This document shows, one piece after another, positions 1,468 through 11,663 of a DNA stretch of 29,952 bases. Under the pieces are notes generated by a model. That model saw nothing but the letters and a program-made list of their open reading frames with translations, did not search any database and was not told the DNA's origin. The DNA comes from a virus. The DNA lies in the IMG/VR virus record IMGVR_UViG_3300026953_000007, positions 1 to 29,952 of that record; one strand, 5' to 3'. The translations under genes were made by a program, and so were the position numbers. How positions within the stretch are numbered: the first letter of the stretch is position 1; each line of letters begins with the position of its first letter.

Positions 1468-1544
1468 TGGCGTACCCGGTCGGACTCGAACCGACAGCCT
1501 GGAACTTAGTAGGGACCCGCTCTGTCCAATTGAGCTACGGGTAC
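1468..1544 (-). tRNA. class I tRNA, arginine-like, anticodon ACU (atypical)
   Basis: The minus strand folds as a cloverleaf with encoded CCA. The acceptor stem is GTACCCG/CGGGTAC, the D stem GCTC/GAGC, the variable loop 5 nt, the T stem GTCGG/CCGAC with loop TTCGAGT, and the discriminator is G73. The anticodon loop reads CTACTAA, giving anticodon ACU, one base from the common tRNA-Arg(UCU) loop CTTCTAA. A20 and C35, known arginine identity positions, are present. Serine tRNAs have a long variable arm and this one does not. The anticodon stem (GGTCC/GTTCC) has two mismatches at 29-41 and 30-40, so this may be a decaying or pseudo-tRNA. Every other helix is fully paired. Confidence 0.75.
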
Positions 1545-1627
1545 ATGGTGGCGGAAACCGCGCCGATGGAAGGCCCTACCACCTTCCACCGGCACGGCGA
1601 CTTAGCTGCTCCGGGTGATGTGCTGAA

Positions 1628-2641: not shown

Positions 2642-3094
2642 TTATGCAACTCTTATGCTTTCACGAGGAATTTCTACCTCACGTTTTCCGCCGAATATTT
2701 CCAACAGACATTTCACTCTTTCCTTGTGGTCAGAAACAAAAAGACCTTGGAACCCAGTAAATGCCCCGTCCGTCACGCAAATTACTTCGCCGGTAATAAA
2801 TTTATGAGGTTCTGTGTGATCAATTGGAGGCATATAGGATCTAATTGTCTCTATGACTTCTTCTCTAACAGCTATCGGCAGAAAGCCATTTCTCAGTAGG
2901 TCTATGCATCCCCTGGTCGAGCGGATCACACCCCAATTATCCATCTCCCGGTTGAAGCGCACGAATAAATATCGCGGAAACATGGGCTTGGAATGCAGGA
3001 TGGGGAGGTAAGTATGAAATTCCTGCCGCGCCAGCTCAATGGCTGCACGCGCTTCCTGGCGGGAATGGGTTTGGACCACGAACCAGTTTATCAT
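2642..3094 (-). CDS. NusG/RfaH-like transcription elongation factor
   Basis: The 150-aa protein has a NusG N-terminal (NGN) domain and a KOW-like C-terminus. It starts MINWFVVQTHSRQEARAA, the usual opening of NusG/RfaH paralogues, and continues with the LHSKPMFPRYLFVRF strand region (about residues 33-50). The C-terminal part, VICVTDGAFTGFQGLFVSD (about 104-122), is the KOW-type turn seen where such proteins bind ribosomes or NusE. Members bind RNA polymerase and suppress pausing and termination. Placed deep in the early-left operon, it could act as the phage antiterminator. The 5'-proximal part of the window copy (2640-2960) is visibly more AT-rich than its surroundings, suggesting a foreign origin. 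Its ATG overlaps the upstream stop by 4 bp. Confidence 0.8.
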   Translation of the reverse strand: MINWFVVQTHSRQEARAAIELARQEFHTYLPILHSKPMFPRYLFVRFNREMDNWGVIRSTRGCIDLLRNGFLPIAVREEVIETIRSYMPPIDHTEPHKFITGEVICVTDGAFTGFQGLFVSDHKERVKCLLEIFGGKREVEIPRESIRVA

Positions 3095-4673: not shown

Positions 4674-4996
4674 CCCACCCGCCATGCCTTACGCTGGTTG
4701 ACACCAACCACGTTAAACCTCGGAGAAAGGCGCTTTATCAGCCGCAACTCGATCATCGCCCATTCGCCGTACTTTTGGGCCCGCTTAATGCGAATATGGC
4801 AATCTCTCGCACCTGGAACACGACCCCAAGGGGTATCAACGCCAGTCCCATAGCCAGGGATTACACGGTGGGAACGCAGGCGAGATTTCAGATTGCCGCT
4901 GCTACCAACGTAGATCGGCTCATCGTCAGCAAAAATAACATACACGCCAGCACACTCTGGCGCGTTCCAATAACGGCATACTTCCCATTTAGTCAT
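4670..4996 (-). CDS. GIY-YIG superfamily nuclease-like protein
   Basis: The 108-aa protein contains GVYVIFADDEPIYVGSSGNL (about residues 17-36). This matches the GIY-YIG core: GVY, then YVG, then a conserved Arg (LKSRLRSH). A conserved Glu is present in WAMIELRLIKRL, with SPRFN at the end of the fold. These are the Tyr, Arg and Glu positions used for metal-dependent DNA cleavage. It is a one-domain protein without a target-recognition module, so it may need a partner or act as a repair or junction-type nuclease, or as a homing remnant. It is coupled by a 4-bp overlap to the replication gene. Confidence 0.8.
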   Translation of the reverse strand: MTKWEVCRYWNAPECAGVYVIFADDEPIYVGSSGNLKSRLRSHRVIPGYGTGVDTPWGRVPGARDCHIRIKRAQKYGEWAMIELRLIKRLSPRFNVVGVNQRKAWRVG

Positions 4997-7675: not shown

Positions 7676-7703
7676 AAAATAGATTTTTCTATGGGACAGT
7701 CAA
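7676..7703 (-). promoter_or_regulatory. predicted cro promoter (early left)
   Basis: On the minus strand, TTGACT (7703-7698) and TATTTT (7681-7676) are separated by 16 bases, a good sigma70-type promoter. Operator 7679-7692 covers the spacer and overlaps the -10 box, and operator 7703-7716 touches the -35 box. CI bound there would therefore block transcription. The expected start site is near 7669. Confidence 0.65.
7679..7692. promoter_or_regulatory. CI/Cro operator 1 at the cI-cro switch
   Basis: ATAGATTTTTCTAT is a near-perfect palindrome (ATAGA...TCTAT arms). The identical 14-mer recurs at 8754-8767, upstream of the rightward operon. It covers the spacer of the cro promoter and overlaps its -10 box. 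Confidence 0.7.
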
Positions 7704-7740: not shown

Positions 7741-7756
7741 TATGCTGCGATACACG

Positions 7757-8461
7757 ATGACGTTCGGGCAGCGGATCAAGGCGGCGCGGGAACACGCCGT
7801 TCCAAAATTGAGCCAGGGACAGCTCGCCAAGAAGCTTGGCCTTCAGCAGCCGACCATTCACAATCTTGAGACCAACCCTAAAGTTACCAGCAGCAAACAT
7901 ACCAATTCGATTGCGCGGATCACTGGCGTGCGTGTCGAATGGCTGGAGACTGGTCAGGGGAAAATGGCTGATGTCCAATCTCGGACATCCGTTGATGAGC
8001 CCGAAAATAAGAAACTATTAACTGAGCCGGAAATTAATATTCATCAAATGCGAAGCGATGTCCCAGTCTTGGGGTTGGCTTCGTGCGGTGAGGATGGGTT
8101 GTTTGAACTGAATGGCCAAATTCTCGATATGGTTCGCCGGCCACCCCGGCTGGTAGGCGCAAAAAATGTATATGCCCTATATGTAGACGGCGAAAGCATG
8201 AGCCCCTGGAGAGAGCCGGGACAGCTCGTTTACGTCCATCCCGATATGCCGGCCAAGATCGGGGACTATGTGGTTGTGGAGATGGAGCCCGAGAAAAAGG
8301 GCGACACCGTGCGCCGCGCCTATATCAAGCGCCTAGTGAGGCGCACCAGCGAGAAATTGATTTTGGCCCAGTATAACCCGCCCGAGGAAAAGACCCTTCC
8401 AGCGAAGCGCGTAAGGGCTGTACACCGGGTTATAGACTGGTCCGAGCTGTTAGGGATCTAG
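7757..8461 (+). CDS. CI-type repressor, XRE HTH plus S24 self-cleavage domain
   Basis: This 234-aa protein is the lysogeny repressor. The HTH is at about residues 18-60 (LSQGQLAKKLGLQQPTIHNL). The linker ends at a likely cleavage site Cys110-Gly111 (GLASCGEDGLFE). The S24 peptidase follows, with Ser147 in DGESMSPW and Lys191 in RRAYIKRLV. RecA-stimulated self-cleavage would inactivate it during DNA damage. The ATG at 7757 is chosen because the predicted -10 box lies at 7738-7743. The in-frame ATG at 7742 is inside the promoter. It is divergent from cro, with three operators between them, and it ends in a shared CTAG with the convergent lipoprotein gene. Confidence 0.9.
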   Translation: MTFGQRIKAAREHAVPKLSQGQLAKKLGLQQPTIHNLETNPKVTSSKHTNSIARITGVRVEWLETGQGKMADVQSRTSVDEPENKKLLTEPEINIHQMRSDVPVLGLASCGEDGLFELNGQILDMVRRPPRLVGAKNVYALYVDGESMSPWREPGQLVYVHPDMPAKIGDYVVVEMEPEKKGDTVRRAYIKRLVRRTSEKLILAQYNPPEEKTLPAKRVRAVHRVIDWSELLGI

Positions 8462-8694
8462 GGCCTGACACAATCGAACGTCATAGTGCTGTCCAGAACA
8501 TCGGTGCCGCTGATACGGGCAATCCTGCCAAACTGCTTGCAGTGATCATTAGCTATGGCGAACGCCTGGTCACGGTTTCCAGCGGTCGAATGTTCTATGA
8601 TGCCGCCTGCCTGATTAGCCCCCGACAGGCTTGGCGCGCATCCCGCCATGGCTAAGGCCATAAGGCTGGCCCCTACAAACTTCCAAATCCCCAT
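8458..8694 (-). CDS. small lipoprotein, possible lysogenic-conversion gene
   Basis: The 78-aa protein has a classic lipoprotein signal: a short basic start, a hydrophobic segment and the lipobox LAMAGC with the lipidated Cys at residue 19. The mature part (about 60 aa) has two Cys (DHCKQF and TFDCVRP) that could form a disulphide. It converges on cI, and the two stops share one CTAG. A GGGAG ribosome site lies about nine bases before the ATG. Position beside the repressor, opposite to the lytic operons, suggests expression in the lysogen as a surface moron, perhaps in superinfection exclusion; that is inference. Confidence 0.75.
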   Translation of the reverse strand: MGIWKFVGASLMALAMAGCAPSLSGANQAGGIIEHSTAGNRDQAFAIANDHCKQFGRIARISGTDVLDSTMTFDCVRP

Positions 8695-8753: not shown

Positions 8754-8767
8754 ATAGATTTTTCTAT
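8754..8767. promoter_or_regulatory. CI operator upstream of the rightward operon (site A)
   Basis: This 14-mer, ATAGATTTTTCTAT, is identical to operator 1 at 7679-7692. Its last base overlaps the first base of the -35 box at 8767-8772. Confidence 0.75.
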
Positions 8768-8794
8768 TGACCGGGGCATAGATTTCTCTATTAT
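8767..8794 (+). promoter_or_regulatory. predicted early-right promoter
   Basis: TTGACC (8767-8772) and TATTAT (8789-8794) are separated by 16 bases, the same geometry as the cro promoter. Two CI operators overlap it. Transcription would begin near 8801, leaving a leader of about 113 bases before the first ATG at 8914. The region 8695-8913 otherwise holds no gene; it contains the operators, this promoter and a structured leader element. Confidence 0.7.
8778..8791. promoter_or_regulatory. CI operator upstream of the rightward operon (site B)
   Basis: ATAGATTTCTCTAT differs from operator 1 at one base. Its centre is exactly 24 bp from site A, the same spacing as at the switch. It covers the promoter spacer and part of the -10 box. 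Confidence 0.75.
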
Positions 8795-8855
8795 CCCCTC
8801 ACCTTCCCCGGTCATCCCGGCCAGTACCCCAGCCCCTTCGATAGGTAGGGGTGAT

Positions 8856-8904
8856 CGGGGGAGGAACGGAATAGCCGCCTGCGAAACAGGCTTGGAAGAA
8901 AGAG
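8856..8904 (+). promoter_or_regulatory. repeated structured leader element, copy 1
   Basis: The element has CGGGGGAGGAA (8856-8866), ATAGCCGCC at +15, then a hairpin GCCTG-CGAAA-CAGGC (8877-8891), then TTGGAAGAAAGAGGG leading to the ribosome site of the gene at 8914. Copy 2 (9498-9546) has the same order and spacing but a different, still perfectly paired stem. The stem-loop has the dimensions of a lambda boxB (5-bp stem, 5-nt loop), but no boxA was seen. Confidence 0.6.
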
Positions 8905-8913
8905 GGCAACAAA

Positions 8914-9492
8914 ATGGAATTGACGCTTGAAGCACTTGGCCTGTCGCAAGAATTGGTCGCGGAGCGCGTGGTTGACCAAGTCGCGCGCGGATTACTTTAT
9001 GACCTCGATGAGACCGATGAGGACGGTAACCCGGTTGAGCGGAGGTCGAAATTCCAAGACACGCTCAAGGCGCGCGTGCAGCAGCAAATAGACGCTTCGG
9101 TAGCTGAGGTCGCCGCAAAGCACGTCCTGCCTAATATCTCAATTTTTCTCGAAACCTTCATGCTCCAAGAAACCAATTCGTGGGGCGAGAAAAAGGGCAA
9201 CCCCGTGACTTTCATCGAATACCTGATCCAGCGAGCAGATTTTTATATGCGGGAGCAGGTGGACAGCGAAGGAAAGTCCAAGAGCGAGAACAACTGGGGC
9301 TCCTGGAATGGCAAACAAACTCGCGTGACCTACCTCGTTCACAAGCATCTTCAATACAGCATCGAGACCGCGATGAAACAGGCGCTTGCAGACGCGAACA
9401 GCGCCATCGTGGGCGGTTTGGAGCAGGCGATCAAGCTCAAGCTTGCTGAGGTGCAGAACAGTATCAAAGTCGGCGTGCAGGTGGGGCGCTAA
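8914..9492 (+). CDS. hypothetical early phage protein, 192 aa
   Basis: This is the first gene of the rightward operon. The protein is soluble and largely helical: an N-terminal helix, a middle region (ETNSWGEKKGNPVTFIEYLI), a polar stretch (SKSENNWGSWNGKQTRV) and an Ala-rich C-terminal helix (LADANSAIVGGLEQAIKLKL). I do not recognise the family. An AAAGAGGG ribosome site sits upstream of the ATG. First position behind the CI-controlled promoter suggests a role in early takeover, but nothing in the sequence gives the activity. Confidence 0.75.
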   Translation: MELTLEALGLSQELVAERVVDQVARGLLYDLDETDEDGNPVERRSKFQDTLKARVQQQIDASVAEVAAKHVLPNISIFLETFMLQETNSWGEKKGNPVTFIEYLIQRADFYMREQVDSEGKSKSENNWGSWNGKQTRVTYLVHKHLQYSIETAMKQALADANSAIVGGLEQAIKLKLAEVQNSIKVGVQVGR

Positions 9493-9497
9493 CCCTG

Positions 9498-9546
9498 CGG
9501 GGGAGGAAGCAGATAGCCGCCCACTGCGTGGGCTTGGGAAAAGAGG
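9498..9546 (+). promoter_or_regulatory. repeated structured leader element, copy 2
   Basis: CGGGGGAGGAA (9498-9508), ATAGCCGCC at +15 (9513-9521) and a perfect 5-bp hairpin GCCCA-CTGCG-TGGGC (9519-9533) match copy 1 in layout. Two of the five stem pairs differ from copy 1 but remain paired, which is covariation. It precedes the pentapeptide-repeat gene at 9553. A shorter related sequence (CGGGGGAGGGA, 10391-10401, no such hairpin) precedes the Lar-like gene. Confidence 0.6.
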
Positions 9547-9552
9547 GAAGAG

Positions 9553-10374
9553 ATGGCGCTTGTTGAAATCAAATTCGCTCCATGGAGCATGAAGTCATCT
9601 CTCCAGGTGGAAGTTGGCGATGAAGTAAACCCAATCTTCCGCCTTCGCTCTGCGCTGGAAATTGTTGTTGGCGAGATCAAGGAAGGCAAGCGTGAAAGTG
9701 CCGACCTGAGCGATGCCGACCTGCGCGGTGCCGACCTGCGCGATGCCGTCCTGCGCGATGCCGTCCTGAGCGGTGCCGACCTGCGCGATGCCGACCTGCG
9801 CGGTGCCGTCCTGCGCGATGCCGTCCTGAGCGGTGCCGACCTGCGCGATGCCGTCCTGCGCGATGCCGTCCTGAGCGGTGCCGACCTGCGCGATGCCGAC
9901 CTGAGCGGTGCCGACCTGCGCGATGCCGTCCTGAGCGGTGCCGACCTGAGCGGTGCCGACCTGCGCGATGCCGACCTGAGCGGTGCCGACCTGAGCGGTG
10001 CCGTCCTGCGCGAAATTTTGGAAAAGGAAGTTCCGCTCATTCCCAATATCGACGCTGCAATTCTGGCGTCCATAGAGAAAAACAAGGCTGCCGGGACCAA
10101 CGGCCTGGACATGGGCTCCTGGCATGGCAAAGAAGATATTGACGAAACCAACTGGTGCGGCACGACACATTGCCGCGCGGGATATGCCATCTGCCTTGCT
10201 GGCAAGGAGGGTTTCGCGCTGGAAAAGAAATACGGCTCTGCGACGGCAGGAATGCTGCTTTACATGAAATCCACGCCCGACGCCAAAATCCCCAATTTCT
10301 ATACGACCGACGAACGCGCAATGGCTGATTTGCGCGAGCGGGCGGCAAAACAAACAAGCCCCAGCGGCGCTTGA
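9553..10374 (+). CDS. pentapeptide-repeat protein
   Basis: The 273-aa protein has three parts. Residues 1-49 form an N-terminal cap. Residues 50-154 are 21 tandem pentapeptides of the form A(D/V)L(S/R)(D/G), expected to coil into a right-handed quadrilateral beta-helix of about five turns. Residues about 155-273 form a C-terminal domain with MGSWHG, CGTTHCRAGYAICLAG and IPNFYTTDERAMADL, seen in other phage and bacterial pentapeptide proteins (recalled). Known pentapeptide proteins such as Qnr/MfpA bind gyrase by DNA mimicry; that role is possible here but not shown. A strong AAGAGGGAAGAG ribosome site precedes the ATG. Confidence 0.85.
   Translation: MALVEIKFAPWSMKSSLQVEVGDEVNPIFRLRSALEIVVGEIKEGKRESADLSDADLRGADLRDAVLRDAVLSGADLRDADLRGAVLRDAVLSGADLRDAVLRDAVLSGADLRDADLSGADLRDAVLSGADLSGADLRDADLSGADLSGAVLREILEKEVPLIPNIDAAILASIEKNKAAGTNGLDMGSWHGKEDIDETNWCGTTHCRAGYAICLAGKEGFALEKKYGSATAGMLLYMKSTPDAKIPNFYTTDERAMADLRERAAKQTSPSGA
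9700..10014 (+). repeat. 15-bp tandem array encoding pentapeptides (21 units)
   Basis: Units read GCC-(GAC/GTC)-CTG-(AGC/CGC)-(GGT/GAT). The first 20 units are exact in this alphabet and the last is degenerate. Each variable codon toggles between two forms one base apart, and GCC and CTG never change even at third positions. CGC pairs mostly with GAT and AGC with GGT. The lack of silent changes suggests recent expansion or gene conversion. The opposite strand also stays open as a by-product. Confidence 0.9.
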
Positions 10375-10413
10375 GCGGCTCCCCATATATCGGGGGAGGG
10401 AGCAAAGAGGAAG

Positions 10414-10719
10414 ATGGATATGGCGGACCTTACGATGCTGGAAGTGATTAAGGCGGGGATGGCTCCGAAGTCTCGCGCGCCGCTGGGTTGCCCATTTTGC
10501 GGTGAAGACCCTGGCTTGGCCCGCATTATCCATCACCGCTTCATCGTGGGCTGTGAATCGGATGACTGCCACGTTTGCCCGCAAGTTTCCGGCGACACAT
10601 TGGATGAAGTGTGGAAGCGCTGGAACCGCCGCGCGCCTCAGCTTCGCGTCGTGTCCAGCAATCCCGATCCTATAACGGTGTCTGAGCTTGAAGCGATTGG
10701 GGCCGGCGCGCTGAAATAA
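10414..10719 (+). CDS. Lar-like restriction alleviation protein
   Basis: The 101-aa protein contains LGCPFCGEDPGLARI, then CESDDCHVCPQ, then TLDEVWKRWNRR (residues about 24-72). This is the Lar pattern: a CPFCG zinc pair, a second Cys pair and the closing WNRR. Lar proteins of lambdoid phages modulate host type I restriction, favouring modification of incoming DNA. The last 25 residues are an extra tail. An AAAGAGGAAG ribosome site precedes the first ATG. It sits between the two repeat-protein genes in the early operon, where anti-host functions are common. Confidence 0.75.
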   Translation: MDMADLTMLEVIKAGMAPKSRAPLGCPFCGEDPGLARIIHHRFIVGCESDDCHVCPQVSGDTLDEVWKRWNRRAPQLRVVSSNPDPITVSELEAIGAGALK

Positions 10720-11054: not shown

Positions 11055-11663
11055 ATGGAAACGGCGACGGTTCTTTTTGGGACCGTCCCGGATGCTCTTA
11101 AGGGCTCCGGCGACGGCTCCGGCTACGGCTCCGGCTACGGCTCCGGCTACGGCTCCGGCTACGGCTACGGCGACGGCTCCGGCTCCGGCTACGGCGACGG
11201 CTACGGCGACGGCTCCGGCTACGGCTACGGCGACGGCGACGGCGACGGCTCCGGCTACGGCTCCGGCTACGGCGACGGCGACGGCGACGGCTCCGGCTAC
11301 GGCGACGGCTCCAAAGAGTATTGGTCCGCCCTAGTCGATACTTTTGCCGAGAAATGGGAGCCCGCGCAGCGCGCACGACTCCGTGCGCTGCGCGGCGAGA
11401 ATGTTACCGTTGCTTACTGGCGCTCTGATGCGAACGGAAAGCCATGCAACGGAGGTCGCGGCGCGGCTGTCAACCCTGGCTTGGTGCAGAAGATCAAGGG
11501 ACCGCTTGCGCTATGCGGCGATGGCGCGCTTCACGCCACACTGATCCCGCCGAAATGGGAAGGTGATCGCGTTTGGATTGTCGCCATGCACGGAGAGGTG
11601 AAATGGCAGGACGATAAGTGCGGTGCGCTTGAGCGGGAAATCATCGGGGAATGTCTCCAATGA
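11055..11663 (+). CDS. Gly-Ser/Tyr/Asp dipeptide-array protein
   Basis: The 202-aa protein has a short N-terminus (METATVLFGTVPDALK), then 35 Gly-X dipeptides where X is only Ser, Tyr or Asp. A globular C-terminal half follows (KEYWSALVDTFAEKWEPAQR, then GPLALCGDGALHATLIPP, then VWIVAMHGEVKWQDD). The array is likely disordered or sticky, like a low-complexity condensate-forming tract. The C-terminal motif (LC..GALHAT..P..W.G.R.W.VA..GEV) recurs in phage repeat proteins from memory, sometimes with pentapeptides. The start at 11055 is preferred for the upstream GGAAG; an in-frame ATG at 11040 overlaps the previous gene. Confidence 0.75.
   Translation: METATVLFGTVPDALKGSGDGSGYGSGYGSGYGSGYGYGDGSGSGYGDGYGDGSGYGYGDGDGDGSGYGSGYGDGDGDGSGYGDGSKEYWSALVDTFAEKWEPAQRARLRALRGENVTVAYWRSDANGKPCNGGRGAAVNPGLVQKIKGPLALCGDGALHATLIPPKWEGDRVWIVAMHGEVKWQDDKCGALEREIIGECLQ
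11103..11312 (+). repeat. 6-bp tandem array (35 units) encoding Gly-X
   Basis: Each unit is GGC followed by TCC, TAC or GAC. All 35 Gly codons are GGC and all X codons end in C, so there is no silent variation. The order looks irregular with short runs, as produced by slippage and unequal exchange. The reverse strand is also open and Arg-rich, which is a by-product of the repeat. Confidence 0.9.

Follow-up and report, generated by a model that had tools for sequence, protein, structure and literature searches.

Hairpin-bearing leaders repeated before early-gene start codons in a phage with a lambda PL-like operon

Introduction

Why should one short, hairpin-bearing segment stand immediately before two separate genes of a single phage operon, and at what level of gene expression might it act? 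The question is raised by the 29,952-nucleotide stretch of viral DNA analysed here (the window; IMG/VR record IMGVR_UViG_3300026953_000007, positions 1 to 29,952), in which an earlier note had described two copies of a structured leader with compensatory changes in the stem, placed them in the 'right operon' and hinted at antitermination of the lambda boxB/NusG type. The finding is real and is better supported than it was by that first view of the sequence. As far as we could find, a start-of-gene leader of this kind is undescribed in the literature and in Rfam, and its function is something that we infer.

Architecture of the repeated leader

Both copies, at 8856 and 9498, follow the order CGGGGGAGGAA-N4-ATAGCC-[5-bp hairpin]-TTGGRA-(N)-GAGGG-ATG (Table 1). 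The two-copy observation is borne out by exact matches to CGGGGGAGGAA-N4-ATAGCCGCC at 8856-8879 and 9498-9521, ATAGCCGCC starting 15 bases into each copy, and the stems and loops are as first described; the whole record was searched, with no further match elsewhere and none to a reversed control pattern. Copy 1 pairs GCCTG with CAGGC around the loop CGAAA, and copy 2 pairs GCCCA with TGGGC around CTGCG, the latter having an alternative fold of 6 bp with a 3-nt loop. Identity runs on through GGC-TTGG(A/G)A and the GAGGG SD to the ATGs of the genes at 8914 and 9553; the 3' end of the hairpin lies ~15-20 nt upstream of the start codon. The shared 11-base and 9-base blocks at 4-base spacing occur as one such pair in the window and in 0/300 first-order Markov windows, so copies 1 and 2 are related. 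Given the constant GCC/GGC, the two extra Watson-Crick pairs have p ~0.06 for one copy and ~0.004 for both, and this covariation, taken from the two window copies alone, is weak evidence; the stability of the 5-bp hairpins is unremarkable against shuffles (z -0.55 and -0.62).

The strongest pairing with the anti-SD in both copies is made by the upstream G-block, at -10.9 kcal/mol, above the local SD, and with the hairpin removed the G-block would lie about 28 nt (copy 1) and 25 nt (copy 2) from the start codon. The shorter relative reported at 10391 also proved genuine, consisting of CGGGGGAGGGAGCA and then AAGAGGAAGATG and lacking the ATAGCC hairpin; this trimmed version stands before the third gene of the operon. 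Its G-block is the 3' arm of a CTCCCC/GGGGAG pairing, while copy 2 has no comparably strong partner.

Table 1. Positions of the leader copies, associated operon features and Pseudomonas-type (R1) sites; positions are those of the window unless a contig is named
Feature	Position	Strand	Composition or basis
Element copy 1	8856..8906	+	CGGGGGAGGAA, CGGA, ATAGCC, hairpin 8877-8891, TTGGAAGAAAGAGGG (SD GAGGG 8902-8906)
Element copy 2	9498..9547	+	CGGGGGAGGAA, GCAG, ATAGCC, hairpin 9519-9533, TTGGGAAAAGAGGG (SD GAGGG 9543-9547)
Trimmed relative	10379..10414	+	CTCCCC-ATATATCG-GGGGAG hairpin (10379-10384 with 10393-10398) containing CGGGGGAGG, then AAGAGGAAGATG; repeat family D2
Near-identical palindromes ATAGATTTTTCTAT / ATAGATTTCTCTAT	8754..8791	+	Repeat families D1/D2; third at 7679-7692
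Sigma-70-like, PL-like promoter TTGACC-16-TATTAT	8767..8794	+	10/12 matches, consensus only
17-bp leader hairpin	8802..8864	+	8802-8818 pairing with 8848-8864, including three G-U pairs; starts at position +2 of the predicted transcript
First operon gene, phrog_26090 family	8914..9492	+	PHROG assignment
Pentapeptide-repeat protein gene	9553..10374	+	PF00805 1.5e-38; phrog_31265
Lar-like restriction alleviation gene, lambda ral equivalent	10414..10719	+	PF14354 6.5e-7; phrog_599
NusG-like gene, near end of opposite PR-like operon (outside the element)	2642..3094	-	PF02357 2.3e-15; phrog_6386
R1 sites	L024:2933-2978; L213:494-541, 700-747; L214:398-446, 776-825; L215:398-446; L029:4596-4644, 4910-4958; L225-L243

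Genomic setting

The plus-strand operon runs from the phrog_26090 gene through the pentapeptide-repeat, Lar-like, DUF6948, RecT and NinB/Orf-like genes to an integrase gene, which is last; upstream of the operon are the gene of an S24-type repressor, likewise on the plus strand, and, on the minus strand, a Cro-like gene of the YdaS/Cro family. This gene content and layout is that of the lambda PL operon, not PR, so the 'right operon' is better named PL-like. The near-identical palindromes are likely CI operators, adjoining the S24 repressor gene (7742-8461), for which a homology search found no relatives. Together with the consensus promoter they predict a transcript start at ~8801, and from there the leader of copy 1 would open with a 17-bp hairpin that the earlier note had missed (-37.3 kcal/mol for 68 nt, z -3.33, 0/200 shuffles equally stable), whose 3' arm is CGGGGGAGG, the G-block of copy 1.

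Homologues of the first gene, 33-48% identical, occur in Pseudomonas phages and prophages and in other contigs, and its distant homologues in L014, L016 and L026 have no clear hairpin. Two short stretches (GSW-GK and ETN-W codons) recur almost identically in the first and second genes, in a different order (9297-9318 with 10113-10134, and 9169-9186 with 10144-10161), the two proteins being otherwise unrelated. A long low-complexity run of the SGYGDG type (11100-11320) lies within the gene at 11055, whose frame is intact, and the pentapeptide-repeat gene beside it is also repeat-rich. Where lambda has rex, between the repressor gene and the PL-like promoter, is a small lipoprotein-like gene (8458-8694, minus strand), possibly an extra gene expressed in lysogeny. 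The position of the NusG-like gene, near the end of the PR-like operon, is that of lambda Q, and this NusG paralogue may be a late-gene antiterminator. At the left end of the contig a tRNA-like gene (1468-1544, minus strand), to which ARAGORN gives an unusual anticodon, ACT, for serine, lies beside a transposase-like gene (454-1452).

Relatives of the leader in other phages

A scan of 2.9 million viral contigs with a pattern derived from the window led to contig L103 (and the nearly identical L104), which carries ATAGCC-[GCCGC TAAC GCGGC]-TTGGAAGTGAGGGGAAG-ATG before an 83-aa ORF, with the extended match TTGGAAG-N-GAGGG-ATG. The same contig holds a second leader, AGAGCC-[GCGGC TTC GCCGC]-TTGGAAGAAGGG, upstream of a DNA methylase gene, and this one was not picked by the search pattern. 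The stems (GCCGC/GCGGC and GCGGC/GCCGC) differ from those of the window, and across the four members every variant is paired: C-G or G-C at position 3, T-A, C-G or G-C at position 4, and G-C, A-T or C-G at position 5. All four add two more C-G pairs across a UU bulge, giving CC-[5 bp]-UU-GG. A covariance model built on the two window copies detected both L103 members, at 26.0 bits (E 6e-6) and 19.2 bits (E 0.001), L103 being a 4.7-kb fragment whose first member came from a window-derived pattern. L103 and the window have no significant translated similarity; pairing is thus retained in all four members, which come from two phages that are otherwise unrelated. The earlier proposal of an RNA element whose hairpin is conserved and covaries is supported by these two members, with other stem sequences before two further genes.

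The pattern CC-[5 bp, loop 3-6]-TTGGRA gave 5 hits on both strands of 1.76 Mb, four of them the window and L103 members, all at gene starts, and the fifth a chance hit in coding DNA, against control means of 1.3 hits, 0.03 at gene starts, with permuted tails. Within the 1.76 Mb scanned, the composite CC-[5 bp]-UU-GG-RA stands at gene starts only in the window phage and L103. A third possible L103 copy (1567-1597, minus strand) lies inside a coding region and was not counted, and a single hairpin in L155, ATAGCCGCCC-CAAC-GGGCGGC-TTGGGAGGG-ATG, was set aside since it has another pairing register and may be chance.

Other searches yielded no relatives. All 11 hits to the exact 5'-block pattern in viral contigs were unrelated coding DNA; a one-mismatch scan of 289 alphaproteobacterial genomes gave 9 hits against 3 for the control, all chance by context, and the 3' pattern gave 13 hits in 385 alphaproteobacterial genomes, below the reversed control and none convincing. 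Short-query BLAST against 50,697 phage records, and against plasmids, returned chance matches only. At gathering score, Rfam 15 found only a tRNA in the window and nothing in L103, L155 or the Pseudomonas leaders described below. A RecT search led to three phages, all without the element, and RecT was not found in the 190 alphaproteobacterial genomes searched. In random phage DNA, TTGG was not generally enriched downstream of pre-start hairpins, so the window type is a specific family; this exact type is represented by two phages only.

A pre-start hairpin family in Pseudomonas prophages

In Pseudomonas phage MR13 (L024), a different hairpin stands before the orthologue of the first gene, GATTTACTGATGCCGC-loop-GCGGCATTGGAAATC-AACGGAGG...ATG, and BLAST with this leader and one related leader found further examples in Leptolyngbya phage Lbo-JY16 (two) and in the Pseudomonas phages PseuP_224 and PS-1. 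A covariance model of this family, R1, detected it in 13 of 100 genomes of Pseudomonadaceae, where some members are paired ~270-310 bases apart, and in 0/115 alphaproteobacterial genomes; no Rfam family matches it. Standard pairs fill 93.6% of the pair cells in the 34 distinct sequences, against 41-65% with the partners slid. Changes on both sides were seen in 10/15 pairs, with a covariation score of 0.503 against 0.219 shuffled (0/500), in an alignment fitted to the model; a model-free alignment already showed double changes in 8/15 pairs. In 32/37 sites there is a start codon downstream, at a median distance of 15 nt and with an SD-like sequence close by. R1 is thus a well-supported and apparently undescribed structured RNA family before early-gene start codons in Pseudomonas-type prophages, and it is the strongest result of this work and the best test bed.

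R1 resembles the window leader in three respects: its hairpins lie immediately upstream of the SD and start codon, at several small early-operon genes in each phage and near cI; it has the strand TTGGRAA in common, on the 3' side; and it stands before orthologues of the window's first gene. It differs in its longer hairpin and conserved lower helix, UUUC-A-CUG...GG-GAAA, and with filters off the R1 model matched neither window copy, its best window score (11.9 bits, E 1.1) falling elsewhere. The window copies are not members of R1, though they have the same placement and the same repeated use in an early operon.

Functional interpretation

The leader is repeated, and it is positioned before start codons. 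Its fixed order of hairpin, TTGGRA, purines with SD and start codon, gene after gene, favours translation initiation over transcription, and we regard it as about an even call that the copies are cis-acting RNA leaders of individual genes in a CI-controlled, lambda-PL-like early operon that act on translation initiation. Transcription from a CI-controlled promoter, an effect on translation and a role for the G-block are each something that we infer from the sequence. In such a leader, the ribosome-binding segment, TTGGRA...GAGGG, purine-rich and unpaired, would come after a short hairpin rich in GC (5 bp, with two more C-G pairs over a UU bulge); the hairpin would stop upstream RNA from pairing with the SD, and the 30S subunit would be offered an open stretch. 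A standby or second docking site might be provided by the upstream GGGGGAGGA block, whose pairing with the anti-SD is stronger than that of the local SD. This role is speculation, and weakest for copy 1, where the G-block would be locked in the 17-bp hairpin if the predicted transcript folds, which makes a standby role there doubtful. A leader ORF beginning at an ATA after the G-block was considered and dropped, as it has no normal start codon.

Known translational signals offer partial parallels. At the split sites of T4 genes 25 and 38, a hairpin between a strong upstream SD and the start brings the SD to 5-11 nt from the AUG (PMC3014915). The window leader is alike in its strong upstream SD and intervening hairpin but keeps 25-28 nt and has a local SD, a spacing too long for a split ribosome-binding site of the T4 type. 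The SAS elements of cluster K mycobacteriophages are repeated SD-core elements before the starts of non-structural genes, with a proposed role in translation initiation, and the ESAS adds an upstream 17-bp inverted repeat for which, according to the authors, RNA pairing is unsupported (PMC3203893). These are also repeated short elements before start codons, but the window sequence differs and its pairing is kept; on direct reading, no GGGATAGGAGCCC-like SAS sequence 3-7 bp before the start codon (as defined in PMC3203893) is present in the window leaders.

It is distinctly unlikely that the 17-bp and 5-bp hairpins, lying from +2 to ~+95, instead act on RNA polymerase against termination or pausing, in the manner of HK022 putL or, together with a phage factor, as a nut-like site. 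Copy 1 does have two stem-loops just downstream of a PL-like promoter, the position of putL (PMC9378689), and the phage encodes a NusG-like protein. Copy 2, however, lies inside the operon without the first stem, the L103 members stand before separate genes, and all four are at start codons. The element is repeated before genes and, compared via the published description of put, lacks the putL signature: the A3GACG7/C15GUCU19 pattern (AGACG...CGTCT) is absent from 8795-8900. The lambda boxB consensus loop is GNRA-like. The window element shares with the nut boxB a 5-bp stem and 5-nt loop, but its loops (CGAAA, CTGCG) are not GNRA-like and it occurs several times per operon at start codons; neither leader has a boxA-like site, and the earlier note had seen none, the best match to CGCTCTTTA differing at 4 of 9 positions in copy 1 and at 5 of 9 in copy 2. 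The best match in the leader to the ops-like GGCGGTAGNNTG (target of RfaH, a NusG paralogue) has 5 mismatches of 12, and the NusG-like gene is in the Q position. The hint of boxB/NusG antitermination is therefore not supported.

Two further readings we also consider unlikely. The repeated block might be short DNA common to gene cassettes, through which phages swap early genes in homologous or RecT-like recombination, with a hairpin that is incidental; the blocks do lie exactly between genes, on both sides of two accessory genes, in an operon encoding a RecT-type annealing protein. Yet the homology is short (11 + 9 + 7 bases), the stem changes while keeping its pairing, which is superfluous for DNA exchange, and L103 has the same layout with little other common sequence. 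Alternatively, the hairpins might shield downstream segments of mRNA from decay or mark cleavage sites between cistrons, a role favoured by the GC-rich hairpins between cistrons and by the great stability of the one at the 5' end of the predicted transcript, but a constant TTGGRA and a placement fixed with respect to the SD and start codon are unexpected of a pure stability stem. We think it very improbable that the leader has no function, being a recent duplication with the likeness in L103 thrown up by a large scan. The search pattern did give 109 stretches, nearly all of them chance in coding DNA, and no relatives were found by short-query BLAST in the phage records or in the 385 alphaproteobacterial genomes; against this, L103 holds a second, unselected member and the extended match noted above.

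Significance

Our findings suggest that some phages tag early genes with a folded start-of-gene signal that probably aids initiation by the ribosome. A broader proposal, which we offer tentatively and think more probably wrong than right, is that the window element and R1 branch from one class of phage RNA, widespread and so far undescribed, in which every temperate phage lineage sets its own version of the pre-start hairpin at many early genes and a single factor, of host or phage, recognizes the tag and switches translation of the entire early set. In the usual view, promoters and terminators are the main points of control in phage early operons, and covarying hairpins repeated at successive early-gene starts point to a common layer of control that acts on translation or on the fate of the mRNA. 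R1, the Pseudomonas family with 34 distinct members, is large enough for direct testing and would be a new RNA-database entry, and the window copies present the same layout in phages with other sequence types.
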